From Vibrio sp. DW001 (GTDB taxonomy: Bacteria > Pseudomonadota > Gammaproteobacteria > Enterobacterales > Vibrionaceae), in NCBI RefSeq assembly GCF_029016285.1, contig NZ_CP091975.1, positions 1,674,001 to 1,738,000 on the forward strand: DNA of 64,000 nucleotides, in the 5' to 3' direction. Shown piece by piece: positions 8,100 through 19,994 of this stretch. Numbering within the stretch: the first letter of the stretch is position 1; every line of letters begins with the position of its first letter. The translations under genes and the position numbers were made by a program. The notes beneath the pieces were generated by a model. It made no database searches. It worked only from the letters and a program-made list of their open reading frames with translations, and was not told where the DNA came from.

Positions 8100-8121
8100 A
8101 AGCCCTAGAAAGGGCTTTAAT
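8100..8121. repeat. left attachment repeat (attL core)
   Basis: 22-bp sequence beginning AAGCCCTAG and ending GGGCTTTAAT, identical to 19973-19994. Both copies are themselves hairpins (AAGCCCT/AGGGCTT). With the A-run to its left, this copy reads on the minus strand as hairpin plus T-tract, i.e. the distal half of the former grxA terminator. The P2 attachment core as I remember it has a comparable AAGCCC...AAGGG arrangement. Confidence 0.85.
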
Positions 8122-8489
8122 TATGAACATATCTATATGATTTATAAGTAATTATATTTTATTAGCGCCACTAAGTGACCACTACTTATTTTTTAACACT
8201 TTTTTGCTTACTTGAGGAACCCTATTGTCTGTCATAGTATCCATGCCGAGTGGCAAGCCCTGTCTTGGTCTTTTTATGATTCTATCCTATTGATTTATAG
8301 GGTAATGATATTAATTATCCCAAAGGAATAAAATTAACCATGCTAATCATATAAAATGTGTTGCTTTTCAATCTATAAAATATTTACGATAATAGCCAAG
8401 ATTAGAAGCACCTAATCACTGTACGGTTTTAAGTACCACACAATAAATTAAAATAACCGCACATTAAACGTTGGTAACCGAGGTAACCT
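8122..8489. other. left end of the element, noncoding
   Basis: A+T-rich, no ORF recognised. It contains an arm-type repeat at 8169-8182 that matches one near the right end, as expected for integrase binding. The rest probably holds the promoter of the 106-aa gene (GAGGTAACCT ribosome-binding region before ATG 8490). Confidence 0.5.
8169..8182 (+). repeat. candidate integrase arm-type site, left
   Basis: CACTAAGTGACCAC; the right end of the element has CACTAATTGACCAC at 19859-19872 in the same orientation, one mismatch in 14. Repeats of this kind beside both attachment cores are expected for arm-type binding by P2-family integrases. Confidence 0.45.
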
Positions 8490-8810
8490 ATGAGCTTTTG
8501 GGAATTTTTAGTAATCGTAGTTGTATTTGCAATCTTCTTTAATGTCATTTCAACCAGACAACGAAGAAAACGCCTCATGGCGAAATATAGAAACGAACAT
8601 ATAGTTAACCGTCTTATGAAAAAAACTTTTTGGCAAGGACAAACAAAAGACGAACTAATTGACTCTTTAGGAAAACCACAAGACATCTCTCAAAAAGTTC
8701 TCAAAACAAAAACAAAAGAGATTTGGAAGTACAACAAGTCGGGCAAGAATAGATATGGACTAAAAATTACAATAGAAAACGGTCTTGTCATTGGGTGGGA
8801 CCAAAAATAG
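8490..8810 (+). CDS. small membrane-anchored protein of unknown function
   Basis: 106 residues. An N-terminal hydrophobic helix (residues about 4-20) is followed by a basic stretch (TRQRRKRLMAKY) and a soluble domain with the pattern FWQGQTKDELIDSLGKP...KTKEIWKYNKSGKNRYGLKI...NGLVIGW. That pattern resembles the BamE/SmpA-like fold of small bacterial proteins found widely as accessory genes. No function is assigned. It is the leftmost gene of the element, on the opposite strand from the phage structural genes, and its stop lies only 11 bases before the tRNA-Trp fragment. RBS GAGG before ATG 8490. Likely cargo. Confidence 0.65.
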   Translation: MSFWEFLVIVVVFAIFFNVISTRQRRKRLMAKYRNEHIVNRLMKKTFWQGQTKDELIDSLGKPQDISQKVLKTKTKEIWKYNKSGKNRYGLKITIENGLVIGWDQK

Positions 8811-8821
8811 GACAAAATTTT

Positions 8822-8870
8822 GCGGATTCCAAATCCGCGTGTTGGGAGTTCGAATCTCTCCACCCCTGCC
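8822..8870 (+). pseudogene. 3' half of a tRNA-Trp gene
   Basis: The anticodon arm (GCGGA stem, 7-base loop TTCCAAA with anticodon CCA, TCCGC stem), variable loop, T arm (GGGAGTTCGAATCTCTCC) and 3' acceptor strand CACCCCT-GCC match bacterial tRNA-Trp. The 5' acceptor strand and the D arm are absent: upstream sequence is the end of the 106-aa gene and does not pair. The last base of CCA is T. So this is a fragment starting at the anticodon stem, as left by tRNA-targeting integrases. Confidence 0.85.
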
Positions 8871-8905
8871 TTTTCTTTTTGCATATCTATGCAAAAAGAA
8901 AAGGC
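8868..8905. repeat. 18-bp perfect palindrome after the tRNA fragment
   Basis: Arms GCCTTTTCTTTTTGCATA and its exact complement with a 2-base TC spacer. It overlaps the last bases of the tRNA fragment and the first arm of the following terminator. Confidence 0.85.
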
Positions 8906-8927
8906 CACTCTTCGGAGTGGCCTTTTT
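8903..8927 (+). terminator. terminator downstream of the tRNA-Trp fragment
   Basis: GGCCACTC, UUCG tetraloop, GAGTGGCC, then TTTTT. This is the kind of terminator that closes a tRNA operon; here it may also stop readthrough from the 106-aa gene. Confidence 0.85.
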
Positions 8928-9204
8928 GTCATTTCAGATTCTATATTTCGTTGTTCCTAGCAAACTATTATCTCCACAGTCTTTTAGATAGTTTTGTCAA
9001 TGTGTTTGATGTAAAGCAGATGTGCTGTCATATTGGAGATATACGGATTACAAGCGCATACTGTTATTGGTATGAAGGCCGCTATGCTGTTAGTGTATTG
9101 TTTTATATAGAATAAAAAGGCGATCTTTGTAGTTGCATCAGAGGTTATGTGGCAATGTGTCATATAATGAGCGTAAACTTTTGTCGTTAATTTAGAGGGA
9201 AGCT

Positions 9205-9699
9205 ATGAGTTGGAAAACGATTTGGTTAGGGCTGATTAACTGGGTATTTCCTATTTTGGTGATAACGCCGTTGATAATGTATTTACACGTGTTCGTAGAG
9301 AATTCCACCGTATACGCATTAACATCAGCATGTATGATATTTATCTACTATGTGTTTACATTCTTTCGTTTAGAGTCAACGTTAAGTAAAACTCATCGTT
9401 ATGATATGGCGATGATTCCTGTAGTATATGTACTGGTACTAATCATAGTCGCTGCTTTGTTTTCATTCCCATTTATTATGACTAATGCTTTTCTAAATAC
9501 AGGGAAGTACATATCATCGTTCGATATTTTTTACTATTGCATGATTTCTTTGACGTCAGTAGGTTATGGCGATTTATCTCCTGTAAGTACTGCTGAACGA
9601 ATCTTAGCTATTGGAATGTCTTTAGTAGGTACATTGCATATGGTTATGTTTATTTCAGTTTTAGTTGGAAAACTTAGTGTTCTGAATAAAAAAAGCTAG
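9205..9699 (+). CDS. potassium-channel-like membrane protein (cargo)
   Basis: 164 residues, mostly hydrophobic. Two N-terminal helices (about 8-28 and 36-54) precede a pore module: helix 72-93, a pore loop with the K+ selectivity signature TSVGYGD (117-123) and a final helix about 131-155. This is the Ion_trans_2 family pattern, without a cytoplasmic RCK/TrkA domain. It should act in the inner membrane as a tetrameric K+ channel. RBS AGAGGGAAG precedes ATG. It has its own promoter region and terminator on the strand opposite to the capsid genes, which marks it as an independently expressed moron. A role in exclusion or abortive infection is possible but not shown. Confidence 0.75.
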   Translation: MSWKTIWLGLINWVFPILVITPLIMYLHVFVENSTVYALTSACMIFIYYVFTFFRLESTLSKTHRYDMAMIPVVYVLVLIIVAALFSFPFIMTNAFLNTGKYISSFDIFYYCMISLTSVGYGDLSPVSTAERILAIGMSLVGTLHMVMFISVLVGKLSVLNKKS

Positions 9700-9826
9700 T
9701 AAACGTTTAAGGTTTAAAGTTACTTGAACTAATCTCTGGAGCTTGTGTACGAGCACAAGTTCAAACTCATTTATGTCTGAAAGTAAGTAGAGATTTCTGA
9801 CTTCATAAAAATGAATGAGTAATAGA

Positions 9827-9854
9827 AAGGCCACTAGAAATAGTAGCCTTTTTG
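9827..9854 (+). terminator. terminator of the channel gene
   Basis: AAAGGC-ACTA arms around GAAA (one bulged base) with a T-run; lies between the convergent channel and scaffold genes. Confidence 0.7.
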
Positions 9855-9874
9855 TATTTTGACGTCGTGAGAGG

Positions 9875-10423
9875 TCAAAGGTACATGTCTTCCTCTTCCT
9901 CTCTATCAGACTCACCTGTAAGTGCAATGGCCTGTATGGTTAGGTTCTCTACTTGAGCAGATAACTCGGTGACTCTGTTTTTCAAGACACTGATTTGATC
10001 TTCTTTCTTATAGAACGAACTCTTCTTCACAACGTTATTCGTAGAAGTAGCTGAAAGATGAATTTGAGTGGTACCTAGAGAGGATGGGTTATCCGTTAAC
10101 GCAAGGCCAGTTAAGTAAGCTTTGCCTGTGCCTGCAAACTCTTCTATGTACTCACAAGCCGCGTGTAACAGTTGTCCTTGCTCAACGGTATGCAATAGCC
10201 TTGAATTAGGCTTTAGCACCGCATAGAGCTTGTTACTATGCTTTTTTAGTGAAGCAACAGAGCCAAGCTTTTCACCTCTTCGTTCTTGGTCTTTATTTAT
10301 GCGAGCGGTATAAACACTTGGGTTATAACTCTCTGCCATTTCGTCGATAATTTGCTGGCTGATTTCTCTACCACCAACAGACACACCTGCGGTTAAAATA
10401 CAGATTGGATCAGATATAAACAT
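9875..10423 (-). CDS. gpO-like capsid scaffold with a disabled protease domain
   Basis: 182 residues, related to the P2 capsid scaffold/protease gpO (284 residues). Matching segments: AESYNPSVYTARIN to P2 AETFDPRVYGCRIN, and FAGTGKAYLTGLALTDNPSSLGT to P2 FANTGKCYLVGLAVTDDPASLGT (in pieces). The P2 catalytic residues Asp19, His48 and Ser107 align with Gly17, Gln46 and Ala89, so proteolysis should be lost. The C-terminus is short, with a heptad-like stretch (residues about 136-166) and an acidic tail, lacking most of the gpO helical scaffold. Start ATG 10423 has RBS GAGGA; the earlier in-frame ATG at 10465 does not. It follows the capsid gene by 77 bases and is probably cotranscribed. Confidence 0.85.
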   Translation of the reverse strand: MFISDPICILTAGVSVGGREISQQIIDEMAESYNPSVYTARINKDQERRGEKLGSVASLKKHSNKLYAVLKPNSRLLHTVEQGQLLHAACEYIEEFAGTGKAYLTGLALTDNPSSLGTTQIHLSATSTNNVVKKSSFYKKEDQISVLKNRVTELSAQVENLTIQAIALTGESDREEEEDMYL

Positions 10424-10500
10424 ATGTTGTCCTCTTCTTCGTATTGAACGAACGAGCCCGACCAAGTGATAGGCGAGCTCCTTTCACTAAAATCTTGGGG

Positions 10501-11529
10501 CTATTTCCAAGCACCATTTTTGTTAAGTTTGACTGCATCGAAATCAATGGCAGCGGCTTTGTCTAATTGCTCAATGATGTAACACAGCGACATTGATTCG
10601 AAGCTCTCTAGACGGTTGAATCTATCGTTGCGTCTTCCAAATGAACGCCTAAAGGCGCGAGCTAAGAAGTAAATGGATAGGTTGTCGAAACTGGTGACCA
10701 TGATACCCCGTGCAGGAAAACAAGACGGCATAAAGGCAGGCATGGCGCCATAGGATTCTTTAATCTGTCGCATCTCTATTTGGTGAACGGGTTGCTTAGG
10801 ATCAACACGTTTTTGATAGAAGCTGGCCGCATCATGAGCCACTAAATCACTGCCAAGTAATACAACGAGGTCGTTAACATCACGATGACGGGGCGCTATT
10901 TTCGCCTTCACAGCGGACACGGCTTCATTAACGCTAGCGTAGTGACCATCTTCACCAATACGTATCTCTTCGCTCTCAGGGCTTAATATAGACGCTTCTC
11001 TGTGGTCTCTTAACGCTTGAATCCAACCTTCTGTTACATCTTCGCCGTTGGGGTTAAGTGCTTCGTCGGAATCATCGGCGGTCTCTTTACCAAAAAAGCC
11101 GACGCGTATTAAATCTAAGTTCGCATGCTTTTGCATTTCACGCTCAAAACAGTCATTAAAGTCGTCATGGTGCGCCCAAGCATCCATCGTTTCGTAGGAG
11201 ATAGCAGAATCAAAGTTAACTTGTTTACATTCATAAGGCATTCCAGTGCTCGGGTTTATTTTGCGCGGTATGCGTGTTCCGCCCTTGGCAGTATCGGTAC
11301 GTGCTGCAATGAGCTTGCCACTGCCTAAGCCTATCGAATTGTCCATATCTCGCACCACTAGAACGAGGTTGATGCGATTGAGAAATTCATCCGTTTTTCT
11401 CATTCGGATGAGTTCGCCTCTGGCCTGTGAACTCTCGACATAAAACCCCCCGTCTTGGTTAAGGGTGTCATATTGTTTTTGCTTATCGTCTTTGTATGCG
11501 CGGAATTTAATATCTGTGTTTGTGTCCAT
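10501..11529 (-). CDS. gpN-like major capsid protein
   Basis: 342 residues, close to the 357 of P2 gpN, the HK97-fold major capsid protein. Colinear matches include FLNRINLVLV with FLTRINIVPV, the TDTA-GGT segment, YECKQVNFDSAISYETMDAWA with YECDQINFDFYIRYKTLDLWA (in pieces), VTEGWIQ with VAVGWLQ, IRIGEDGHYASVNEAV, and LENLSIYYM-like FDNLSIYFL near the C-terminus. No frameshift or internal stop. In P2 the order is O then N; here the capsid gene comes first. The upstream 247 bases hold the promoter. Known role: forms the procapsid with scaffold. Here it is inferred to build satellite capsids or to co-assemble with a helper's. Confidence 0.92.
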   Translation of the reverse strand: MDTNTDIKFRAYKDDKQKQYDTLNQDGGFYVESSQARGELIRMRKTDEFLNRINLVLVVRDMDNSIGLGSGKLIAARTDTAKGGTRIPRKINPSTGMPYECKQVNFDSAISYETMDAWAHHDDFNDCFEREMQKHANLDLIRVGFFGKETADDSDEALNPNGEDVTEGWIQALRDHREASILSPESEEIRIGEDGHYASVNEAVSAVKAKIAPRHRDVNDLVVLLGSDLVAHDAASFYQKRVDPKQPVHQIEMRQIKESYGAMPAFMPSCFPARGIMVTSFDNLSIYFLARAFRRSFGRRNDRFNRLESFESMSLCYIIEQLDKAAAIDFDAVKLNKNGAWK

Positions 11530-11734
11530 GGGTTGTCCTGTTGGTTATTAAATGGATCTATTTCGTGAGGTTCTATTTAACCGATTTAAAAGACGTAACT
11601 GCACTGGATAGAATTCTAGATAGCGGTTCTAGAAGGTGATAAGCAAGATTGCGGCGGCGGGTTGGGTATTATGAAGAGGTGAGTTTGGTTTCCTCTTCAG
11701 TTTCTTATCTCACAATCATCTGTTGGAAAACTCT

Positions 11735-11762
11735 AAAGCCGCTCTCTCTGAGCGGCTTTTTT
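11735..11762 (+). terminator. plus-strand terminator upstream of the capsid gene
   Basis: AAAGCCGCTC, TCTCT loop, GAGCGGCTTT, then T-run on the plus strand. No plus-strand ORF ends here, so it may insulate the capsid operon or end a short transcript from 11580-11735. That stretch also has a G-rich core (GCGGCGGCGGGTTGGG) and two TTCTAGA motifs. Confidence 0.7.
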
Positions 11763-11776
11763 GTGTCTGTTATTTA

Positions 11777-12070
11777 TTAAACGGTTTGCTTGAATACCAT
11801 CGCTGGCCCTACAGGCTCATCACTTGGCGGTCGTTGTGATGGGGTCAGCATGCTAATAATCTTCTCTCGTCTCTTTGCTACTTCGGGTTGTGCCTGCTCA
11901 TCAGGGGGTTGGCTATTGGAATTCTCCACAATAAATTCTTCAAATACAGCGTACTGGCGAAATCGTGCCTGGCACGTTGTGCAATGACAGCAAAATTCCC
12001 TTACTTCATTGGAAATTATCCGCGAAGTTACGATTCGATATTTCGCACCGCAGTTAGGGCAATCTAACAT
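11777..12070 (-). CDS. Ogr/Delta-type zinc-finger late activator, copy 1
   Basis: 97 residues. The N-terminal 50 residues match the Ogr/Delta family of P2 and P4, which bind zinc and activate late promoters through RNA polymerase alpha: Cys4-X2-Cys7, X22, Cys30, with the last cysteine at 33 (CX2C instead of the usual CX4C), followed by the typical F-x-x-Y-x-V/F region. The C-terminal half is variable and polar. The start overlaps the end of copy 2 by 7 bases, so the two are translationally coupled. It sits between copy 2 and the capsid gene, where a late activator of that operon would be expected. Confidence 0.8.
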   Translation of the reverse strand: MLDCPNCGAKYRIVTSRIISNEVREFCCHCTTCQARFRQYAVFEEFIVENSNSQPPDEQAQPEVAKRREKIISMLTPSQRPPSDEPVGPAMVFKQTV

Positions 12071-12246
12071 GTGGCCTCCGGTTTCTTTGGAAGATTAATA
12101 CCTCCAATCAGGCTTAGAGATACCTTGAAAGAAGAAGAGCAATTCAAGTTAGAGCACTGACATGAGTGTTCACTCTGCTTGGCTGTTTGTCTCTGTTTGC
12201 TAATGACGTGCGCTTTGGAATAGCAAATCGGACACGTTACATACAT
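12064..12246 (-). CDS. Ogr/Delta-type zinc-finger protein, copy 2
   Basis: 60 residues, about the length of P2 Ogr (72). Cysteines at 5, 8, 31 and 36 give the exact family spacing C-X2-C-X22-C-X4-C, with the family tail pattern SNLNCSSSFKVSLSLI. Probably a late transcription activator. First gene of a leftward set with copy 1 and then the capsid genes. Confidence 0.8.
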   Translation of the reverse strand: MYVTCPICYSKAHVISKQRQTAKQSEHSCQCSNLNCSSSFKVSLSLIGGINLPKKPEATC

Positions 12247-12830
12247 ACGTTTTCCCTCAATTCTAAATGATGCCTTTAGAATGACGGTATCAACTCGGTG
12301 ATCTTCTGAATATTCAATGACTTTCTAAAATCCAATTCTAGAAAATGGCTGATGCGCAACTGTGCGTATTTTTGCGCGCAGATAGCGCGCGCAGGCCCCG
12401 TTCGGACTCACCCACCCCTCCGCACCGAAATTCCGCACGTTAAATTCGCGCAAAATAGGGCGCATGGTGTATATGGCTTGAAAGCTTGTTGGATAAGGGC
12501 TTGAGAGCGATTCCTAAAAAATAGCAGGATCGCAAACGTGCGTTTTTTTGCGTTTTAATTAAAAAATGCGCATTCAGGCTGTTTTTATACAGAAAAAAGA
12601 AGGTATCGTTCACTAAGGGGGAGTGAAACTTGTTGAGTAAAGAGTCAATTCAAAAGACCACACAACTTGTTGCATCCAAATATTCTCTAAAATCTAAATG
12701 GACTTGTCTTTTACACTTCCGTTTGCCCGAACTCGATTAATTATAAATGACGTATGGAAGTCAAACAGCCATGTGTCCTAATAGGAGTTGGCTCTCAGGT
12801 TGTGAACTTAAACTTCAGTTGGAAAAAATA
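12247..12830. other. large intergenic region between Ogr genes and cargo
   Basis: 584 noncoding bases with sharply uneven composition. The left part has short repeats of TGCGCA/GCGCGC type, a G+C-rich core at about 12372-12440, and further CGTGCG-type motifs to 12565; the right part is A+T-rich with no recognised promoter motif. By P2 synteny (cos lies between the gpA side and the structural side) this is where a packaging site should be. The opposed promoters for Ogr copy 2 and the cargo must also lie here. An in-frame ATG at 12747 is not used as the cargo start. Confidence 0.5.
12372..12440. other. candidate cos/packaging site
   Basis: A G+C-rich block (GCGCGC, GGCCCCG, CCCACCCCTCCGCACCG) in an otherwise A+T-rich element, flanked by short repeated TGCGC motifs. 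Position agrees with cos in P2. I see no exact P2 cos sequence, so this is an inference from place and composition. Confidence 0.3.
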
Positions 12831-13649
12831 ATGAAAGAAATAAAATTTAAAATCTCTTATCGAAAAGGTGAAGCGCATGAGGGACGTCTTGATATGTATG
12901 ATGCGTCTACATCATTACAAGGTTTTGCAAAAGCACTTTCCATTACTACACATGCCTTATTAAACGATGGTGAGATCAAGAAAAAGGGTAATAGAATTGA
13001 AGGAGCAAAAATATATATTCATCCATCAAGAAAAGGTTCTTTTGAAGAGCTTATTACTTTAGCCGTAGAAGAGAAAGTAGCTCTATCAATAGGAGCGAGT
13101 GTAATAGCTAATGTTTTCTATGACTTAATCAAGTGGACATGGAACCAAACGTTAGACAAAACATATGAGCCAGCTACACCTCATGTAAAAAAACTTCATA
13201 ATCGTGTGGAGCATTTTATTGGTGAAATGGAAGAAGCTTTAGAAATCCCACTAGAACAAGCTCATCGTCCAATAAAACAAAATGATGACATGACTATTTC
13301 AATAGTACGCACAAAAGTTGGTGATGTTGTTACGCTTGATAACAATACTTTGAAAAGTGTCTCGTTATACACAGAAAACAATCTAATAACGGAGATTATA
13401 GGCAATATAACTCGGTACAATATTCTTTCTGGGTTTGGTCGATTCTACGATGATGAGTTAGAGAGAACGGTGTCTTTCAAGCTACAAGAAAGTGTAAGCT
13501 CCAACCAGAAGCAGCTCCTAACATGGTCAATGCACCATGCTCAAAATGGAGATGGAGGCAAAATAAAACTAGAGGTCAAACGCGTGATGTCTGCAAAAGG
13601 TGCGGTAAAACGTTATCTAGTACACAAGGTAGCGCAAGCGGTGATTTAA
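12831..13649 (+). CDS. cargo protein of unknown function
   Basis: 272 residues counted from ATG 12831 (MKEIKFKISY); the upstream ATG at 12747 would add 28 residues with no ribosome-binding site. I do not recognise the family. Visible features: a beta-rich N-terminus ending in DASTSLQGFAKAL, a basic loop (KGNRIEGAKIYIHPSRKGS), a hydrophobic stretch at about 85-110 (ALSIGASVIANVFYDLIKWTW) that could be one membrane helix, and a charged C-terminal half. It is A+T-rich, on the strand opposite the phage genes, and is followed 107 bases later by a DUF2971 gene. Its position matches the P2/P4 moron slot where anti-phage genes are usually carried, so defence is the leading guess. Confidence 0.55.
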   Translation: MKEIKFKISYRKGEAHEGRLDMYDASTSLQGFAKALSITTHALLNDGEIKKKGNRIEGAKIYIHPSRKGSFEELITLAVEEKVALSIGASVIANVFYDLIKWTWNQTLDKTYEPATPHVKKLHNRVEHFIGEMEEALEIPLEQAHRPIKQNDDMTISIVRTKVGDVVTLDNNTLKSVSLYTENNLITEIIGNITRYNILSGFGRFYDDELERTVSFKLQESVSSNQKQLLTWSMHHAQNGDGGKIKLEVKRVMSAKGAVKRYLVHKVAQAVI

Positions 13650-13756
13650 CAATGAATAGTGACACACGAGATTTTGGGTTTGCAGTGATGAATAAAGCTA
13701 ATTTCAATTGTAAACCCGTCACTCTCAGGAATAAGATATCTAACTAAGGAAAAAAC

Positions 13757-14602
13757 ATGCTCTATAAATATACTGCACCTGACGGCATTATTAGCTTAAA
13801 AAACAAGAGTTTTAAAATTACGCCTCCTAACCAGTTCAATGATCCTTATGAGTTCATCCCTCGAATTTCTAATGGCACAGATCATGAAGAGATGAAAAAG
13901 TACTTACTAGATGAAGAAAACTTAGTCGAGTTCTATGAGGAAGTAATTGAACAGGAGTTATTTAAGGGCACATATGAAGAGTTCAAGGATGATATCGTAA
14001 ATTCTGCTGATAGGTTTGTGTCCACGATAGTTGACAACACTATGGATAAGGACACTCAATGGCAAAGTGCGCAGGACTTTTTAGAAATAATAAGTCAGAT
14101 AGTAGGGGTGTTTTGTCTCACTAAATGTCCCTCGAATATTTTGATGTGGTCCCACTATGCTTCTAGTCATACAGGTATCGTTATTGGAATAGAGGAAGGT
14201 AGCCAATTTCTCGACAATTCGGATGGTGTACATAGAGTTGAATATACAAACGAACGACCAGAGTTAGATTTATCATGGTTGGATGGAAGTAAGAATATTG
14301 CTGAATTTGGCATAGAAGTTCTAAGAAAAAAATTTTCATGTTGGGCTTATGAAGAAGAGGTTAGAGCAGTATTCAGCTTAGCCGATAGCAAAGCTTTTGA
14401 TACCGATTATGGGACTATATTTCTCAGAGAATTCGATCCTAATTCTATCCAAGAGGTGATTTTGGGTTGTAGGTGCTCACCTGAACTAGAAGACGAAGTA
14501 ATTGATATTCTAAGTGATGAATGCTATCTGCATGTGAAGTTAAAAAAGGCAACCTTAGACCCTATTAACTATAAGATAAACTCAGAACTAATCCTTGATT
14601 AG
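13757..14602 (+). CDS. DUF2971 protein (cargo)
   Basis: 281 residues with the DUF2971 signature: LYKYT at the N-terminus, ITPPNQFNDPYEF (residues about 24-36), VFCLTKCPSNILMWSHYASSHTGIVIGIE near 118-146 (given in pieces: CLTKCPSNILMWSHYA, SHTGIVIG), then FSCWAYEEEVRAVF and EVILGCRCSPE toward the C-terminus. DUF2971 proteins are common in mobile and defence-associated regions; biochemical function is unknown. RBS AAGGA precedes ATG 13757. It ends 12 bases from the convergent Ogr copy 3. With the 272-aa gene it forms a likely two-gene cargo unit. Confidence 0.8.
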   Translation: MLYKYTAPDGIISLKNKSFKITPPNQFNDPYEFIPRISNGTDHEEMKKYLLDEENLVEFYEEVIEQELFKGTYEEFKDDIVNSADRFVSTIVDNTMDKDTQWQSAQDFLEIISQIVGVFCLTKCPSNILMWSHYASSHTGIVIGIEEGSQFLDNSDGVHRVEYTNERPELDLSWLDGSKNIAEFGIEVLRKKFSCWAYEEEVRAVFSLADSKAFDTDYGTIFLREFDPNSIQEVILGCRCSPELEDEVIDILSDECYLHVKLKKATLDPINYKINSELILD

Positions 14603-14614
14603 TACGCTGAACAA

Positions 14615-14857
14615 TTAAGTCTCCACAAACAAATCAATCTGATCCAAATCCTCCGGCCTGCACAACTCAGGTTGGAGGTTCGGATTAGGCTTTCCCCCAA
14701 CTGGTTTAATAATCCGATGCACTGATGTGTAGGTCACGAAGATAACCCCGCAATTTAAGTTCATGCACTGACAATATGCCTCGCGTGTCTCTTTGCTCAT
14801 GGCTCGCGAAGTGGCTATTCGGGCTTTGCTTTCACATTTTGGGCAGGTAATTAACAT
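14615..14857 (-). CDS. Ogr/Delta-type zinc-finger protein, copy 3
   Basis: 80 residues; cysteines at 5, 8, 31 and 36 give C-X2-C-X22-C-X4-C, and the rest of the core (SRAMSKETREAYCQCMNLNC, VTYTSVHRIIKPV) is the closest of the three copies to P2 Ogr. It lies just downstream of the gpA-like gene on the same strand, apart from copies 1 and 2, so it may belong to the early transcript and act as the first switch to late expression. Confidence 0.85.
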   Translation of the reverse strand: MLITCPKCESKARIATSRAMSKETREAYCQCMNLNCGVIFVTYTSVHRIIKPVGGKPNPNLQPELCRPEDLDQIDLFVET

Positions 14858-14975
14858 CGTTCCTCTCTTAATACACTAACGCGCTTCGCTTGTTGAAACA
14901 CCCATCGAGCAAATCAGGCTTGTTTTACTCGATGGCCGTTTGGGGATTGCATCTGAAAATCGTTTTTAGCCGCGT

Positions 14976-16847
14976 TTACGTCACGGCTAACCGTCCATTT
15001 CGAATACTCACTGTCATGTGCTCATCGATTGGGACTTTCTCGCCCCGTTCTAGCGGAGTGAGTAGGGTCTTAACTCGTTTGGCATTCCATCCTGTGACCA
15101 CCATGAGGGCTTTTTCTAACGGCGAAAGTGGCTTTTCAGGAGCAGGGTTACAGTTATTTTCAGTGCTCCGAGACGGGACTCCGTCCCTTTTTGGAGTCGC
15201 TTTTAAATCGGATTTTCTAATGATTTCCCACTGCGCTTTGATGGTGTTAACGCAATGGTGCATGAAGGAGAACCCAACGATTTTCTTTACCGTTTCAAAA
15301 TAGCGGTTCTCTTTCTCTTCATAGGTAATTTGCGCGTCTCCGATGCCTTGAACAAAGTCTTTCCATCTTGATTTGTCGGCATGGCCGTGTAGGTCGGTGA
15401 GTTCATCACATTTGAGTGCTTTAATTTCCTCGGTCGAGGTTTTGCGCAGTGCGCGCCAAATCGAGACAGGTGCGCCACCGAATTGCTGAAACTGGCGAAT
15501 GCGCCAAAGGGAAGCCCAAGCGCGCACCGATTGCGCGGCTTTTTTGTCGGCCTCGGACATGTGCGAGCCGTTAAGGTTTTTTGCTATGTACTTAGCAATG
15601 TAGGCCGTTGCGCCACCCTTGGAAGGGTCGCAAAATTTGCAGTCGAAACGCGCCCTTAGTACCGGCTTATTTCGCTTCTTCAACTTGCCGTTAACCGTCT
15701 TGTAGTAAAGCTCTTGTTTATCTTCTTCAATGGCAATGTCTCGCAATGTAGAAACAATGAGCTCTTTTTCATCTTCTTTACAAAATAGGAAATAGTGCGC
15801 GTGCGCGGTTCCGTCTTTGTGTGGCTCGGCTACTCTAAAACCGAAATAATCTATCCCTTGCTTAGCAAGTATTGCCCTTGCTCGTGACCACTGTTTCATG
15901 AGGTTTTGGTGTCCCTCTTTCGGGTTTGCACCATTCCAATTCTTACTGTTTCGGTGGTACTTACTCGCCAGTGTCCACGTAATAAACGCGGCGGTGTATC
16001 CTTTAGTGTTGGCCAGCTCTTCAAAGCCTCGACTTCTTACCATCATTTCAATACGGCGGTTCTCAGGGTTCGATGTGCTCGCCATGAAGACATTTTCTAA
16101 ATCAACGCTGATATCTTCATCCGCATTGTAGATACAATAATCGGCTAGGAACTTAGCTTGTTTATCTTGCGCTTCTAGAAAGTTATTGAGCGTCATGGCG
16201 CTGACGTATTTTGATTGATTGGCATTGCTGCCTACACGACTAAGCGCGATTTGTGAGTACTCAATGTACTCAAACTTTAAACGCTCTAATCGGTCGTTTA
16301 TCCAATCGTCTGTGGTCATCTTAGTGATAGCGGTAAAGTACTGCTCGAAAGTAGGGCGCTTGGGTAGTCGAGGCGGCGTGATGTGATAATGCCTTATTAA
16401 TTTAGACAGCTTTCGGCACAGTAAACGAAGGTGATGTTCATCGCCGTCACCATCAAACTCAAGAATTAGTTTTTGTAGGTGCGTGACGAGCGTTAAACCA
16501 AATTCTTTACGCTTCTCATCAAGCATTAGAATGTCATGCGTCAAGGCGTTCATGTCGGATTTGATACTGGTTTGAATCTTGCCGATGCGTCTTTTTTTAC
16601 GTTCAGTGTAACGGGTGATTTTGCGGTATTCATTGCGGTCAATGCGACGACTGGCGAAGGGGTAGCGGTGTTCGATGTGCTCAGCAGACAGAAAGCTTTT
16701 CTTTGTCACTTCCCTTGCGAAGGATTCAAGACTGCTACGGGATGCGTTTTCACGCTTTGAACGGGCATAAACTTTTTTGTTTATATCACTCACCACAAAC
16801 TTAGGCAGTGTTGGGTAAAAGTGTGTTTGAAAGCTAGATACTATCAT
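14976..16847 (-). CDS. gpA-like rolling-circle replication initiator (HUH endonuclease)
   Basis: 623 residues, related to P2 gpA, which nicks the origin and starts rolling-circle replication. The metal-binding HUH motif is at His349-Ala-His351 (GTAHAHYFLF), and the two catalytic tyrosines with P2 spacing are Tyr416 and Tyr420 in AYIAKYIAKN. The upstream motif GFRVAEPHKDG and the cysteine pair CKFC are also as in the family. The N-terminal 250 residues are basic and helical. Full length with no frameshift, so replication should be autonomous. In P2 the origin lies inside gene A; I did not locate it here. It belongs to the Cox-initiated early operon. Confidence 0.9.
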   Translation of the reverse strand: MIVSSFQTHFYPTLPKFVVSDINKKVYARSKRENASRSSLESFAREVTKKSFLSAEHIEHRYPFASRRIDRNEYRKITRYTERKKRRIGKIQTSIKSDMNALTHDILMLDEKRKEFGLTLVTHLQKLILEFDGDGDEHHLRLLCRKLSKLIRHYHITPPRLPKRPTFEQYFTAITKMTTDDWINDRLERLKFEYIEYSQIALSRVGSNANQSKYVSAMTLNNFLEAQDKQAKFLADYCIYNADEDISVDLENVFMASTSNPENRRIEMMVRSRGFEELANTKGYTAAFITWTLASKYHRNSKNWNGANPKEGHQNLMKQWSRARAILAKQGIDYFGFRVAEPHKDGTAHAHYFLFCKEDEKELIVSTLRDIAIEEDKQELYYKTVNGKLKKRNKPVLRARFDCKFCDPSKGGATAYIAKYIAKNLNGSHMSEADKKAAQSVRAWASLWRIRQFQQFGGAPVSIWRALRKTSTEEIKALKCDELTDLHGHADKSRWKDFVQGIGDAQITYEEKENRYFETVKKIVGFSFMHHCVNTIKAQWEIIRKSDLKATPKRDGVPSRSTENNCNPAPEKPLSPLEKALMVVTGWNAKRVKTLLTPLERGEKVPIDEHMTVSIRNGRLAVT

Positions 16848-16901
16848 GGCTTTGTTTGTTCCTCTTCTTCATGCTGTCACCAGTGACGGACGCTATAAAA
16901 G

Positions 16902-17093
16902 CTATATACGCTCTAGGGAAACAAACTTTCCTGACTGTACATCGCGCAAGGTGTTAAAGGTTAAATTCCGATGGTCACAACAAGCCGACGCAAGTATTTT
17001 AAATTCCGGCTCACGCTCAACCGGAACCCATACCGTGACCTTTTTTAGTCCTTTTTCATGTTGGGCTAATTCATACTTTTTATTGCGTGACAT
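16902..17093 (-). CDS. small early protein, possibly ribbon-helix-helix
   Basis: 63 residues, strongly basic N-terminus (SRNKKYELAQHEKGLKKVTVWVP) and a C-terminus LRDVQSGKFVSLERI. The segment KKVTVWVPVER looks like the strand of a ribbon-helix-helix DNA-binding protein. Such genes are common beside gpA in P2-like phages. Function unknown. Confidence 0.55.
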   Translation of the reverse strand: MSRNKKYELAQHEKGLKKVTVWVPVEREPEFKILASACCDHRNLTFNTLRDVQSGKFVSLERI

Positions 17094-17102
17094 GGGCTTG
17101 CC

Positions 17103-17312
17103 TTATTGCGCGTTCAGGCGAGGGGATGCATTGACATTGCACACCTCATTGATGGCTGAATGTGCCTCAGCTTGAATGCGTTTCCACATAGTCAATGTGG
17201 CGCGCTCCTGCTCTGTCGGGAGGTGTATAATTTCGCTAATACTATCGGCGGCTAAGGTATACAAACTTTCTAGCTCTTCTAAGGAGTGAACCTTAATAGT
17301 GATATTTGCCAT
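17103..17312 (-). CDS. small early protein, paralogue A
   Basis: 69 residues. Shares a layout with the neighbouring 75-aa protein: MxNITIKVHSLEELESL at the start, then TMWKRIQAEAHSAI in the middle. No known domain. Separated from the 75-aa gene by only 3 bases, part of the early operon between the Cox-like gene and the initiator. Confidence 0.6.
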   Translation of the reverse strand: MANITIKVHSLEELESLYTLAADSISEIIHLPTEQERATLTMWKRIQAEAHSAINEVCNVNASPRLNAQ

Positions 17313-17315
17313 GCC

Positions 17316-17543
17316 TTAGCCCTCATCCTGATAATCAGACTCATCGTCACTATTGGCTTGTAGCTTTTCCATGGCGTTTCCGGCTTCAAGGTGGATTTGT
17401 TTCCACATCATGCTAATTAACGTTTGGCTCGTGGTGAGGCGACTTGCATCCCCTTCTAATAGAGCGTTGTGCCTGATAGCGGAAACATTTTGCAGGTTCA
17501 ACGCTTCTTCAAAGGTGTTGATATCAATTGAGATAGTGACCAT
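17316..17543 (-). CDS. small early protein, paralogue B
   Basis: 75 residues, with MVTISIDINTFEEALNL at the start and MMWKQIHLEAGNAMEKL in the middle, matching the 69-aa protein position for position, plus an acidic tail. Probable tandem duplication. Function unknown. Confidence 0.6.
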   Translation of the reverse strand: MVTISIDINTFEEALNLQNVSAIRHNALLEGDASRLTTSQTLISMMWKQIHLEAGNAMEKLQANSDDESDYQDEG

Positions 17544-17586
17544 TAGTGATTTCCTTGTAGTCGTCCGTTTGTTTGAATTCTTATCG

Positions 17587-17760
17587 TTATTCTTCCAAGC
17601 TTTCTAACAGTTGGATTGCATCAATGAGTTGTGTTTGAATGGTGTCGAGATAGTCTCGATGCGCGGCAATGATTTTTCCGGCGGTCACGCACTTTAAAAG
17701 GACTTTTGCTTCACTCGAATGTGAAAAATCTATATTGATGCTGTGTAGTGGCGTACTCAT
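17587..17760 (-). CDS. small early protein of unknown function
   Basis: 57 residues from ATG 17760, which overlaps the Cox-like stop as ATGA, a normal coupling arrangement; the upstream ATG at 17775 would overlap more. Contains a short helical C-terminal region (DTIQTQLIDAIQLLESLEE). No recognised family. Confidence 0.5.
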   Translation of the reverse strand: MSTPLHSINIDFSHSSEAKVLLKCVTAGKIIAAHRDYLDTIQTQLIDAIQLLESLEE

Positions 17761-18008
17761 ATCGTTGACTTCCAATCTTGATTTTCTTGTGCCTGCTCTT
17801 TCGCATATTGAGCAAGGGCCAACATGTTGACAAAGCGCTTGCCGCGTCTTTTACCAGTGCGACGAATCATTGGTAAACGACCTTCATCACCCGCACTATT
17901 TACAGCATTAACCGTCATGCCCGACAGTTCGGCAAATTTTTCAGGCGTGACGAATGGCGCATAATTGGCGGCTTCAATATTTATTTTTGTTTGTTCATGG
18001 TCTATCAT
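17757..18008 (-). CDS. Cox-like early regulator/excisionase
   Basis: 83 residues from ATG 18008, which has RBS AGAGGT; an upstream ATG at 18050 lacks one. The helix-turn-helix segment VTPEKFAELSGMTVNAVNSAGDEGRLP resembles P2 Cox (YQEFAKLIGKSTGAVRRMIDKGKLP, compared in pieces). It is followed by a basic stretch and VNMLALAQYAKE, where Cox has its conserved aromatic/hydrophobic segment. In P2, Cox represses the repressor promoter and directs excision. It is divergent from the repressor gene and first in the early operon, exactly the P2 arrangement. Confidence 0.75.
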   Translation of the reverse strand: MIDHEQTKINIEAANYAPFVTPEKFAELSGMTVNAVNSAGDEGRLPMIRRTGKRRGKRFVNMLALAQYAKEQAQENQDWKSTI

Positions 18009-18124
18009 GCTACTTACCTCTATATGTTTTGGCGGGTTATGCAATGCCATTTCATGTTTTGTTATTTACTGGTACTTATTAAAAGTGTTTGGTCATGCCA
18101 TGTCAATGAAAAAAGGAAAAAATT
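18009..18124. promoter_or_regulatory. lysogeny switch region between Cox-like gene and repressor
   Basis: Divergent promoter region. ATGCCATTTCA at 18044-18054 and ATGCCATGTCA at 18094-18104 are near-identical direct repeats, candidate operators for the repressor or Cox. A+T-rich boxes (TTATTT, TTATTAAAA) lie between them. Confidence 0.45.
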
Positions 18125-18886
18125 ATGCGTGAATGGTTTCTTAGTACGGAACTGCTCGAACTAGATGGCGTACCCTCTAGCACTACAGGAATTGCCCAAA
18201 AAGCAAATAGAAACAATTGGTTAAAAAGAAAGGCGGTAGGAAGAGGTAAAGCCTTTGAATACCATTTCTCTAATTTTCATGCTGATGTGCAAAAACAAAT
18301 AATTGAGAAGTACATCACAACACCTGATGACTTAAAAAGTTCAGATTATGGCGAGATAGACAAAGACAAAGCATACGAGTCTATTATCAGGCAACTTAAT
18401 GAACGTGCTAAAACATATGAAAGCAACGCGTCAGAGATGATTCCTCTATCTCATTTTGAAAAATGGAGCAAACTTCCTGTATACGATGTTTACGCTGCCG
18501 CTGGGGCAGGTTCTTTGGTTCAAACCGAATATCAAATAGGGACATTTCACATCCCAACCGAACTGCTTAATGAATTCGGACTAGATGACAAAAATAGTTC
18601 AATCATTTTTGTAGATGGCGATTCAATGGAACCAACGTTAAGCCACAAAGATCGGCTATTAGTAGATATAAGAGAAACTCAACATCCCGTTTCAAATGGT
18701 GTTTACGTGATTCGTATAGATGATGCTGTATATGTTAAACGTCTTAGTTGGGACATAGCTAATGGGCTATATAACGTCATTTCAGATAATCTTAAATATT
18801 CCGCCTTTCAGATTAACCACAATAATGGCCGCAACTTTAAAATTATTGGCAAAGCCGTAACGATAGTTATGAAACCTATATTATGA
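18125..18886 (+). CDS. self-cleaving phage repressor (Mu-type HTH plus S24 peptidase)
   Basis: 253 residues. The N-terminal 60 residues (EWFLSTELLELDGVPSST, then RNNWLKRKAVGRGKAFEYH) match the winged Mu-repressor-type DNA-binding domain, not the lambda/434 type. The C-terminal part is a LexA/CI-like S24 peptidase: cleavage region AAAGAG at 124-129, nucleophile Ser167 in GDSMEP, general base Lys205 in YVKRL. It should keep the element quiet and be inactivated in the SOS response. P2's own C repressor is short and not SOS-cleaved, so this is a replacement module. The gene overlaps the integrase start by four bases (ATGA). Confidence 0.88.
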   Translation: MREWFLSTELLELDGVPSSTTGIAQKANRNNWLKRKAVGRGKAFEYHFSNFHADVQKQIIEKYITTPDDLKSSDYGEIDKDKAYESIIRQLNERAKTYESNASEMIPLSHFEKWSKLPVYDVYAAAGAGSLVQTEYQIGTFHIPTELLNEFGLDDKNSSIIFVDGDSMEPTLSHKDRLLVDIRETQHPVSNGVYVIRIDDAVYVKRLSWDIANGLYNVISDNLKYSAFQINHNNGRNFKIIGKAVTIVMKPIL

Positions 18887-19854
18887 GCATCAAAAAAGAG
18901 GGTGATAAATGGCGCGTCGATTTACGCCCTTCGGGGAGGAACGGTAAACGATTCAGAAAGTTATTTGATAAAAAAAATGAAGCTCTAGCGTATGAAAAAC
19001 ACATTCTAGCGACTCACCACAATAAAGAATGGTTAGGACTACCAGAAGATAGGCGGCAGCTTTCTGAGCTTATTGAGATATGGTGGAAAAAGTCAGGTCA
19101 ATTTAAACGATCAGCAGAAGACTATCGCAATAAATTAAATATCATCTGCAATGAGCTAAATAATCCTCAAGCAAATAAAATTAATAATTCATTAATTTCT
19201 GATTGGAAAACATACCGTTTAGAAAAAGGTCAATCACCTGCCACTATCCGGCGCATGCTATCCCCATTAAGCAATGTTTTCACTGTCCTGATTGATAGCG
19301 GTGACTTTACAGCGCAACACCCAATTAAGGGGATTTCTCGCCCCAAAGAGCCTGTTAGAGAAATGACTTTCTTGACGTATGAACAAGTAAAAATACTATT
19401 GAATGATATCTCACACGACAAAGAAATGGTCAGTGCCGTAAAAATCAGTTTGGCGACGGGTTCCCGATGGACGGAAACTATTTCTCTTAAGGCTACGAAT
19501 CTCACTCCGTATCGAATTCGTTTTACAGATACTAAGACAGGTAAACACCGTACTGTACCGATAAGCAAAGCTCTTTATGAGGAAGTATATCCAGAAGACG
19601 GCGGCGCATTATTTCTTACAAATCCACACCACAATCTTAGACAAAGGATTGGTAAATTGTTCGATCTACCGAAGGGACAAAAGAACCATGTTTTAAGGCA
19701 TACTTTCGCGAGTCATTTCATGATTAATGGTGGTAGTATTTTGACACTTAAAGAAATTCTTGGTCACTCTTCTATAACGCAGACTATGACTTATGCACAC
19801 CTAGCCCCTGACCACTTACAAGATGCTGTAAGACTAAACCCACTCGATAATTAA
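18883..19854 (+). CDS. int: P2-family tyrosine integrase
   Basis: 323 residues. The N-terminus (VDLRPSGRNGKRFRKLFDKK, HHNKEWLGLP) and C-terminus (FMINGGSILTLKEILGHSS, AHLAPDHLQDAVRLNPL) follow P2 Int closely. Catalytic residues are all present: Arg195 (TGSRWTE), His269 and Arg272 (HVLRHTF), His295 (LGHSS), Tyr304 (MTYAH). Intact, so the element should still excise with Cox. Translationally coupled to the repressor; attR follows 118 bases after the stop. Confidence 0.95.
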   Translation: MSIKKEGDKWRVDLRPSGRNGKRFRKLFDKKNEALAYEKHILATHHNKEWLGLPEDRRQLSELIEIWWKKSGQFKRSAEDYRNKLNIICNELNNPQANKINNSLISDWKTYRLEKGQSPATIRRMLSPLSNVFTVLIDSGDFTAQHPIKGISRPKEPVREMTFLTYEQVKILLNDISHDKEMVSAVKISLATGSRWTETISLKATNLTPYRIRFTDTKTGKHRTVPISKALYEEVYPEDGGALFLTNPHHNLRQRIGKLFDLPKGQKNHVLRHTFASHFMINGGSILTLKEILGHSSITQTMTYAHLAPDHLQDAVRLNPLDN

Positions 19855-19858
19855 TGTC

Positions 19859-19872
19859 CACTAATTGACCAC
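19859..19872 (+). repeat. candidate integrase arm-type site, right
   Basis: CACTAATTGACCAC, partner of 8169-8182. A related inverted half (AAAAGTGACTAAA on the minus strand) lies at about 19884-19896. Confidence 0.45.
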
Positions 19873-19913
19873 AAACATCATGTTTAGTCACTTTTTACCA
19901 TATCGAACTCAAT

Positions 19914-19940
19914 AAAAAAGCCTTGATAAACAAGGCTTTC
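19914..19940 (-). terminator. element-borne terminator facing grxA
   Basis: On the minus strand: AAAGCCTTG, 5-base loop, CAAGGCTTTTTTA. It lies inside the element beyond attR and would stop grxA transcripts before they enter the integrase gene from behind. Confidence 0.75.
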
Positions 19941-19972
19941 ATGCTACTTCATTTGACATCATTTCTATTTTT

Positions 19973-19994
19973 AAGCCCTAGAAAGGGCTTTAAT
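19973..19994. repeat. right attachment repeat (attR core)
   Basis: Identical 22-bp copy of 8100-8121. Read on the minus strand it is the grxA terminator hairpin, but here it is followed by AAAAATAG instead of a T-tract, because the insertion separated the hairpin from its T-run. Confidence 0.85.

Follow-up and report, generated by a model that had tools for sequence, protein, structure and literature searches.

What is known of head-size choice in the P2 phage family comes mostly from a single pirate, P4 with its Sid protein; P4-like satellites have an alpha primase-helicase among their defining features. A different pirate, the Staphylococcus aureus pathogenicity island (SaPI) SaPIbov5, has to our knowledge no gpO, portal or Ogr. 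Its protein Ccm, which shares 24% identity with the capsid protein of the helper, occupies the pentamers and yields T=4 heads, and complete capsids do not form from Ccm alone, according to the excerpted text of PMC8569155. Here we analyze a 64,000-nucleotide stretch of Vibrio sp. DW001 (NZ_CP091975.1; the window), in which positions 8100-19994 hold an element that combines P2-type integration and replication genes with a capsid homologue. We consider it likely that this element is an integrated satellite of the cos type, packaged from a cohesive-end site (cos) shared with Vibrio P2-like phages of the '1F53_PE003' group (PE003-type phages), and that it works by the mechanism proposed in the Discussion. 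Our searches of open-licence PubMed Central (PMC) papers listed none whose title or abstract opening describes such satellites.

Results

The element is delimited by exact 22-bp direct repeats. We scanned 19 open reading frames (ORFs), 17 in the element and two flanking it, against Pfam and PHROG at E <= 0.001. The core features are:

8100-8121: left attachment repeat, a terminator-like stem (exact 22-bp repeat; one copy at the empty site of genome G260)
9875-10423, minus strand: short gpO homologue, protease-dead by its residues, 182 aa (PF05929)
10501-11529, minus strand: satellite capsid protein, gpN homologue, 342 aa (PF05125, 2.6e-79)
11613-11635 and 12260-12282: putative late-promoter boxes, two mismatches each
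11777-12070, minus strand: Ogr/Delta-like zinc finger 1 (PF04606, 2.6e-6)
12064-12246, minus strand: Ogr/Delta-like zinc finger 2, first late gene (PF04606, 4.2e-8)
12322-12344: putative late-promoter box TTTCTA-N11-TAGAAA, exact
12392-12444, minus strand: 53-bp site common to PE003-type phages, probable cos
14615-14857, minus strand: Ogr/Delta late activator (PF04606, 9e-17)
14976-16847, minus strand: gpA-like rolling-circle replication initiator (PF05840, 1.3e-73; YIAKY motif)
16902-17093, minus strand: small conserved early ORF, 63 aa (phrog_11804, 4.2e-24)
17757-18050, minus strand: Cox-like excisionase/regulator (phrog_575, 4.4e-15; PF10743 at 23.1 bits, below its 27.5 cut-off)
18125-18886, plus strand: S24/Mu-type helix-turn-helix repressor (PF00717, 6.8e-17; PF02316, 3.5e-9)
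18883-19854, plus strand: tyrosine integrase (PF00589, 1.3e-16; PF24624, 4e-22)
19973-19994: right attachment repeat (exact 22-bp repeat; G260 comparison)

A sequence-only reading of this locus had described intact integrase, repressor, Cox-like and gpA-like genes accompanied by gpN-like and gpO-like proteins as the only virion components, and the scans bear this out: the 17 element ORFs gave no match to terminase, portal or tail families. The capsid gene precedes the scaffold gene, opposite to the P2 order of O then N, and the two are joined to Ogr/Delta genes, as had been noted; three PF04606 genes lie above the cut-off. The one at 14615-14857 matches the Ogr of the resident PE003-type prophage at 73%. 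The window copy has no visible gene defect of the kind seen in damaged relatives, and its 63-aa early ORF recurs in 6 of 11 other satellite loci (L007, L008, L044, L046, L047 and L048; L numbers denote loci, G numbers genomes).

We found that the element is one of several. The genome containing the window (two contigs, 5.46 Mb) has PF05125 genes at six places: three near-identical satellites (C1:1684504, in the window; C1:3464337; C1:572907), a broken fourth copy at C1:585329 in tandem with the C1:572907 satellite, and, on contig 2, two full P2-like prophages, one PE003-type and one yong1-type. Across their replication and late blocks, the three satellites are 88-91% identical in DNA sequence; they differ in integrase, repressor and cargo. 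The broken copy (L009, 5017-6351) is of a second gpN group and has apparent transposase genes nearby. Among 329 Vibrionaceae genomes, 29 gave 37 gpN matches, and we read the genomic context of 35 (leaving out G010:C1 and G015:C168). Twenty-seven were phage-type and eight satellite-type, defined by Ogr genes upstream of gpN and by the lack of L-R-S genes. The eight comprise four in the window's genome, including the broken copy, beside whose gpN no Ogr gene was matched, and those in G004, G005, G172 and G272. Further members are four IMG/VR proviruses of 9.5-10.6 kb; a scan of genome contigs with gpO returned 41 pattern stretches and no relatives among them. We conclude that the element is part of a genuine family that spans several species, is under selection and probably consists of cos-type satellites of PE003-like phages.

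The late operon has a constant and a variable part. The Ogr genes followed by gpN are constant. The next gene is a short gpO in the three own copies and in L050, and a portal gene, matching the PE003 portal at 73-80%, in L044, L045, L046, L047 and L051; neither follows gpN in L048 and L049. Relatives do occur in other Vibrionaceae, and the gene set given in the earlier reading is not constant in its second late gene. Because that gene may be gpO, portal or nothing, gpN is the constant virion gene and a core gene of the satellite family, which points to gpN as the part that sets head size. The dead gpO and the portal may be alternative ways to own the head nucleation step. In a gpN tree of 59 rows (12 satellite, 24 phage and 23 of no known context; the phage rows being 18 of 25 phage loci picked by a frame filter plus six named phages), the satellite and phage sequences of known context fall on opposite sides of one branch (support 88/86, not starred). 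The satellite gpN is sister to the PE003-type gpN, with which it shares 39% identity. Across the three own copies, the ratio of nonsynonymous to synonymous substitution rates (dN/dS) was 0.04, 0.09 and 0.16 for gpN and 0.10, 0.10 and 0.25 for gpO. Both genes are under purifying selection, and a ratio near 1, which would have indicated decay of the capsid and scaffold genes, was not found (0.04-0.25).

We next turn to the short gpO. The full ORF (9875-10465) matches PF05929 (3.2e-29) over profile positions 5-168 of 268 only; the likely start is the ATG at 10423, where close relatives begin. The middle of the protein is gone and a C-terminal part is retained. In P2 gpO, the catalytic triad is presumably completed by Asp19 and His48. 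The window's protein has Gly, Gln and Ala in place of Asp19, His48 and Ser107. Among the 120 listed of 172 gpO homologues found, which we aligned to P2 gpO, all 103 long ones (>200 aa) keep Asp19-His48-Ser107, whereas 16 of 17 short ones lack Ser107 (Ala in 11, Tyr in three, Thr in one, Gly in one), each of these also lacking the Asp or the His. The exception that keeps Ser107, P0195, comes from an 844-bp contig. Judged by these residues, the short gpO is protease-dead. P2 gpO is a protease in its N-terminal part (1-141) and a scaffold in its C-terminal part (195-284), its S107A variant is protease-deficient, and gpN is cleaved between residues 31 and 32, as stated in excerpts of PMC7552001. 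The earlier description of capsid and scaffold as two intact genes thus stands for the capsid and for the presence of a gpO-like gene; the scaffold itself is a shortened, protease-dead form. Modelled with AlphaFold, the short gpO gave a structure of poor quality (pLDDT 53), which was not used.

The boundaries of the element are defined by an empty site in the relative G260, where the left flank (to 8121) joins the right flank (from 19973). Both flanks overlap there at one 22-bp copy with an altered loop, and the insertion is therefore 11,873 bp. The element lies between a permease gene (PF06826) on the left and, on the right, a gene that reads as glutaredoxin. A full P2-like prophage at the same site, which would have made this copy a deletion derivative, was not found; the one relative site examined, that of G260, was empty. 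Elements with a repeat at each end are as follows:

Window element: 11,873 bp, repeats of 22 bp
L007 element: 12,179 bp, repeats of 34 nt
L048 element: 12,467 bp, repeats of 48 nt, in a gene that reads as tRNA-dihydrouridine synthase
L008/L009 element: about 12,560 bp, repeats in tRNA-Trp
L050 element, degenerate: about 5.2 kb between tRNA-Trp repeats, integrase fragment only

Four of these five thus measure 11.87, 12.18, 12.47 and 12.56 kb, and P4 has 11,624 bp. This is about one-third of the helper's 32 kb, the size that a T=4 rather than a T=7 head may impose. In L007, a 1.9-kb remnant with an integrase (12973-15204) adjoins the second own copy, with one more attachment-like repeat.

Is the element simply a decayed P2-like prophage in which two head genes were left by chance? 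All core genes have homologues in P2 phages, and some relatives are broken. Against this, the gene order is common to the three intact copies and L050, which is from another species, dN/dS is well below 1, the satellite gpN forms a separate group, four of five sizes cluster around 12 kb, and the gpO serine was lost repeatedly. We therefore regard decay as very improbable, and the earlier proposal of a P2-type satellite that carries genes for capsid and scaffold, rather than a product of random decay, finds support in the copies, the relatives, the gpN group and the dN/dS values.

We then asked what the satellites share with possible helpers. The noncoding 53-bp stretch at 12392-12444 recurs with 41-49 of 53 matches in eight of 11 other satellite loci (L007, L008, L044, L046, L047, L048, L049 and L051); it is weak in L050 (34/53), present as a left half only in L045, and not found in the broken L009. 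In PE003-type phages it directly precedes the operon whose first gene encodes the DNA-circularisation protein. The exact site pattern was found in 26 IMG/VR contigs, 24 of them PE003-type phages and two satellites. A second form of the site was present in 21 contigs, 17 of which have the DNA-circularisation-protein operon adjoining; the rest are the satellite L047, L145 (PE003-type by its terminase), L160 (too short to annotate) and L152. The latter (IMGVR 3300010150_005466) is an unrelated chance match with other flanks, which sets the search background. L047 and both PE003-type prophages of its genome, 2912581116, have the same second form.

In 227 congeneric genomes, the site occurs at 11 places in eight genomes, and a reversed-pattern control gave none. 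The window's genome has exactly four, in the three satellites and the PE003-type prophage; its yong1-type prophage has none. The other seven congeneric places are one in the satellite of G272 and six located 11.5-14.5 kb from a PE003-type gpN. A PE003-type prophage in another genus (G004) also carries the site, with 41/53 matches to that of 1F53. From its position, invariant GC-rich core and single copy per element, we read the site as probably cos. Alternatively, it could be another shared control or replication site, given that it lies upstream of the late operon in satellites and helpers alike and that its likeness to the HP1 cos is weak. This is unlikely: the satellites have a separate putative late box downstream of the site, which in the helpers lies elsewhere, each element has one site, 18 columns are invariant in 16 aligned sequences with variable flanks, and the yong1-type prophage of the same genome does without it.

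Two further candidates were rejected. A tracking of the satellite site with that of the resident helper was not supported overall across all pairs, and the end of an IMG/VR contig at the 53-bp site proved to be a mere chunk boundary. In L045 (7057), the site is a hybrid with the left half as in L044 and a different right half, a pattern found in no other IMG/VR contig; it perhaps reflects a helper switch.

Between the 53-bp site and gpN, all 11 satellite leaders contain TTTCTA-N11-TAGAAA with <=2 mismatches. The leaders gave 20 matches at spacing 11 vs 0-6 at 13 other spacings (range 5-18), in a test that was post hoc, as motif and spacing had been seen by eye before counting and the leaders are partly related. 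The box is also found in five of five terminase/scaffold intergenic regions of PE003-type phages (0-2 matches at other spacings), the interval where the P2 record marks a late activator site; P2 itself lacks the box. Satellites and PE003-type phages thus share a putative late-promoter box.

PE003-type phages are also found together with the satellites. A PE003-type gpN is present in three of five satellite-bearing vs 24 of 324 other genomes (one-sided Fisher p = 0.004, a rough value because the genomes are related). Of the four satellite-bearing IMG genomes, three (2551306077, 2806310940 and 2912581116) contain a PE003-type phage as well; none was seen in the fourth, 2772190772. 1F53_PE003 falls within the accession range of the 107 Vibrio cyclitrophicus prophages of PMC11630473, whose excerpted text contains no description of these satellites.

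Several observations weigh against the element being a cos-type satellite of PE003-type phages. Over whole loci, 68 box matches at spacing 11 compare with 17-40 at six other spacings; seven spacing-11 matches fall in an unrelated yong1-type region, and an exact box at 19962 lies over the right attachment repeat of the window. With a weight matrix built from the sites, cos was missed in P2 (ends only), P4 and HP1. In HP1, the annotated cos junction ranked second (score 28), which is no more than suggestive, since scores of 28-30 also occur in K139 and yong1. Compared with 49 phage sites, the window site matches that of its resident prophage worst (39/54; best 47), and resident helpers rank 49, 15, 1, 24, 6 and 10 of 49; the resident prophage may therefore not be the helper. 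The helper prophage in G005 looks broken. Several relatives are damaged, with gpA frame-split in L048 and L049, the gpN of L051 in two frames, no gpA match at all in L045, a broken fourth own copy (L009, C1:585 kb), and the tRNA-Trp repeats of L050 only about 5.2 kb apart around a mere integrase fragment. Not every family member is thus active.

The remaining features of the window element are:

8822-8929, plus strand: tRNA-Trp 3'-end fragment and terminator, left over from an earlier attachment site
9205-9699, plus strand: passenger ion-channel-like gene between late operon and attachment repeat (PF07885, 1.2e-12)
12747-14602, plus strand: cargo slot with a DUF7946/DUF7947 protein and a DUF2971 protein (candidate defence family PDC-S31)

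Fragments of the tRNA-Trp 3' end lie downstream of the late operon in the window (8822-8929), L007 (12007-12116 and 13973-14022) and L009 (4113-4213). Most copies include the terminator, and the fragment is kept even where the copy is integrated elsewhere. These fragments are relics of an ancestor integrated at tRNA-Trp whose integrases were swapped later. The cargo slot, located between the third Ogr gene and the 53-bp site, differs among relatives: DUF7946/DUF2971 proteins (PDC-S31) in the window, SIR2 (PDC-S25) in L007 and Septu PtuA in L048. P4-like elements carry comparable cargo hotspots (PMC9122126). Slot proteins whose family matches are weak, uncharacterised or absent (L044 6349-7161, L047 5919-7507, window 12747-13649) are candidate new defence genes.

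The slot raises the question of whether the element serves defence or interference, its capsid homologue and dead gpO poisoning helper heads and protecting the cell, with packaging of the element itself rare or absent. The candidate and known defence genes would fit such a role, a dead scaffold and a divergent capsid would suit a poison, and gpA is broken in some relatives. However, integrase, Cox and gpA are all intact in the window, a cos-like site would be pointless without DNA packaging, and related elements occur in two genera at different attachment sites. We consider a purely defensive element improbable.

Discussion

We propose the following mechanism for the satellite. Its own integrase, Cox and gpA, all encoded by intact genes, would excise and replicate the element. 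A helper would then switch on the satellite late genes, with helper and satellite Ogr proteins acting on TTTCTA-N11-TAGAAA, and the satellite would produce its diverged gpN and the short, catalytically dead gpO. Together, these may direct head assembly towards a small shell with room for about 12 kb. The shell could contain satellite gpN mixed with helper gpN, as with SaPIbov5 Ccm, or satellite gpN alone, two options that appear about equally probable. The dead gpO may act as a scaffold unable to start maturation by itself, or it may blunt the helper gpO. Helper terminase would cut the common cos-like site and fill the small heads, and the particle would be finished by helper portal, protease, completion proteins and tails.

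For the family as a whole, we lean towards a Vibrionaceae satellite lineage that arose from a P2-type phage and whose core piracy gene encodes a neofunctionalised major capsid protein, paired with a dead short scaffold, a natural counterpart of S107A, or with a captured helper portal. Such a satellite would control head nucleation and borrow terminase, maturation and tails. It would seem to represent a second solution to head size within the same capsid family, by a capsid homologue and a scaffold stripped of its protease. The variants found in nature, in which gpN is accompanied by dead gpO, by a portal or by neither, offer a ready-made dissection of capsid, scaffold and portal roles. The lineage would also bring a Vibrio prophage group into the range of helper-cos satellites, and the site, the box and the missing serine provide marks for finding such elements, which are easily misfiled as prophage remnants.

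We compared the element to known phages and satellites. The 1F53_PE003-type Vibrio prophages, the likely helpers, have the same site and box and homologous Ogr, gpN and portal, but are about 32 kb long with full virion genes; the terminase, portal and tail genes of a Peduoviridae prophage are unmatched in the 17 ORFs of the satellite. PICMI elements integrate at fis and encode AlpA and a primase (PMC10803314), whereas the attachment site here is not at fis, and AlpA and primase are unmatched. Capsid-forming (cf) phage-inducible chromosomal islands (PICIs) and the cf-PISP and PISP elements of Vibrio crassostreae likewise have their own capsid gene, and PISPs have few head genes (capsid E, protease, small terminase), according to excerpts of PMC13230959. 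Their capsids are of the families PF05065 and PF03864 rather than PF05125 gpN, PISPs are plasmids whereas the window element is integrated, and cf elements encode a terminase and a fuller head set where this family has gpN with dead gpO, portal or nothing. Of virion genes, the 17 ORFs hold gpN and short gpO only, and not the terminase, portal and fuller head module of a cf-PICI.

P4-like satellites resemble the element in their size of about 12 kb, P2-type helper, Ogr/Delta activator and variable cargo slot, as well as in small heads (predicted here). The 53-bp site shared with PE003-type phages, probably a cos, would parallel the cos that P4-like satellites share with their helper. They differ in that alpha primase-helicase, Sid and Psu are unmatched in the 17 ORFs and gpA is present for replication, and in that an external scaffold, Sid, takes the place of the capsid homologue found here. 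The cos-type SaPIs represented by SaPIbov5 belong to another phage lineage but are likewise cos-type satellites with a helper-capsid homologue, Ccm being 24% identical in the excerpted account (PMC8569155) and the protein described here 39%. The arrangement in our element had been proposed to be a third one beside P4 and capsid-forming PICIs; this is too strong, because a satellite-borne capsid homologue has a precedent in SaPIbov5 Ccm (PMC8569155, in excerpt). As in that system, the element encodes a homologue of the helper capsid protein, here a PF05125 protein that is the sister of PE003-type gpN.

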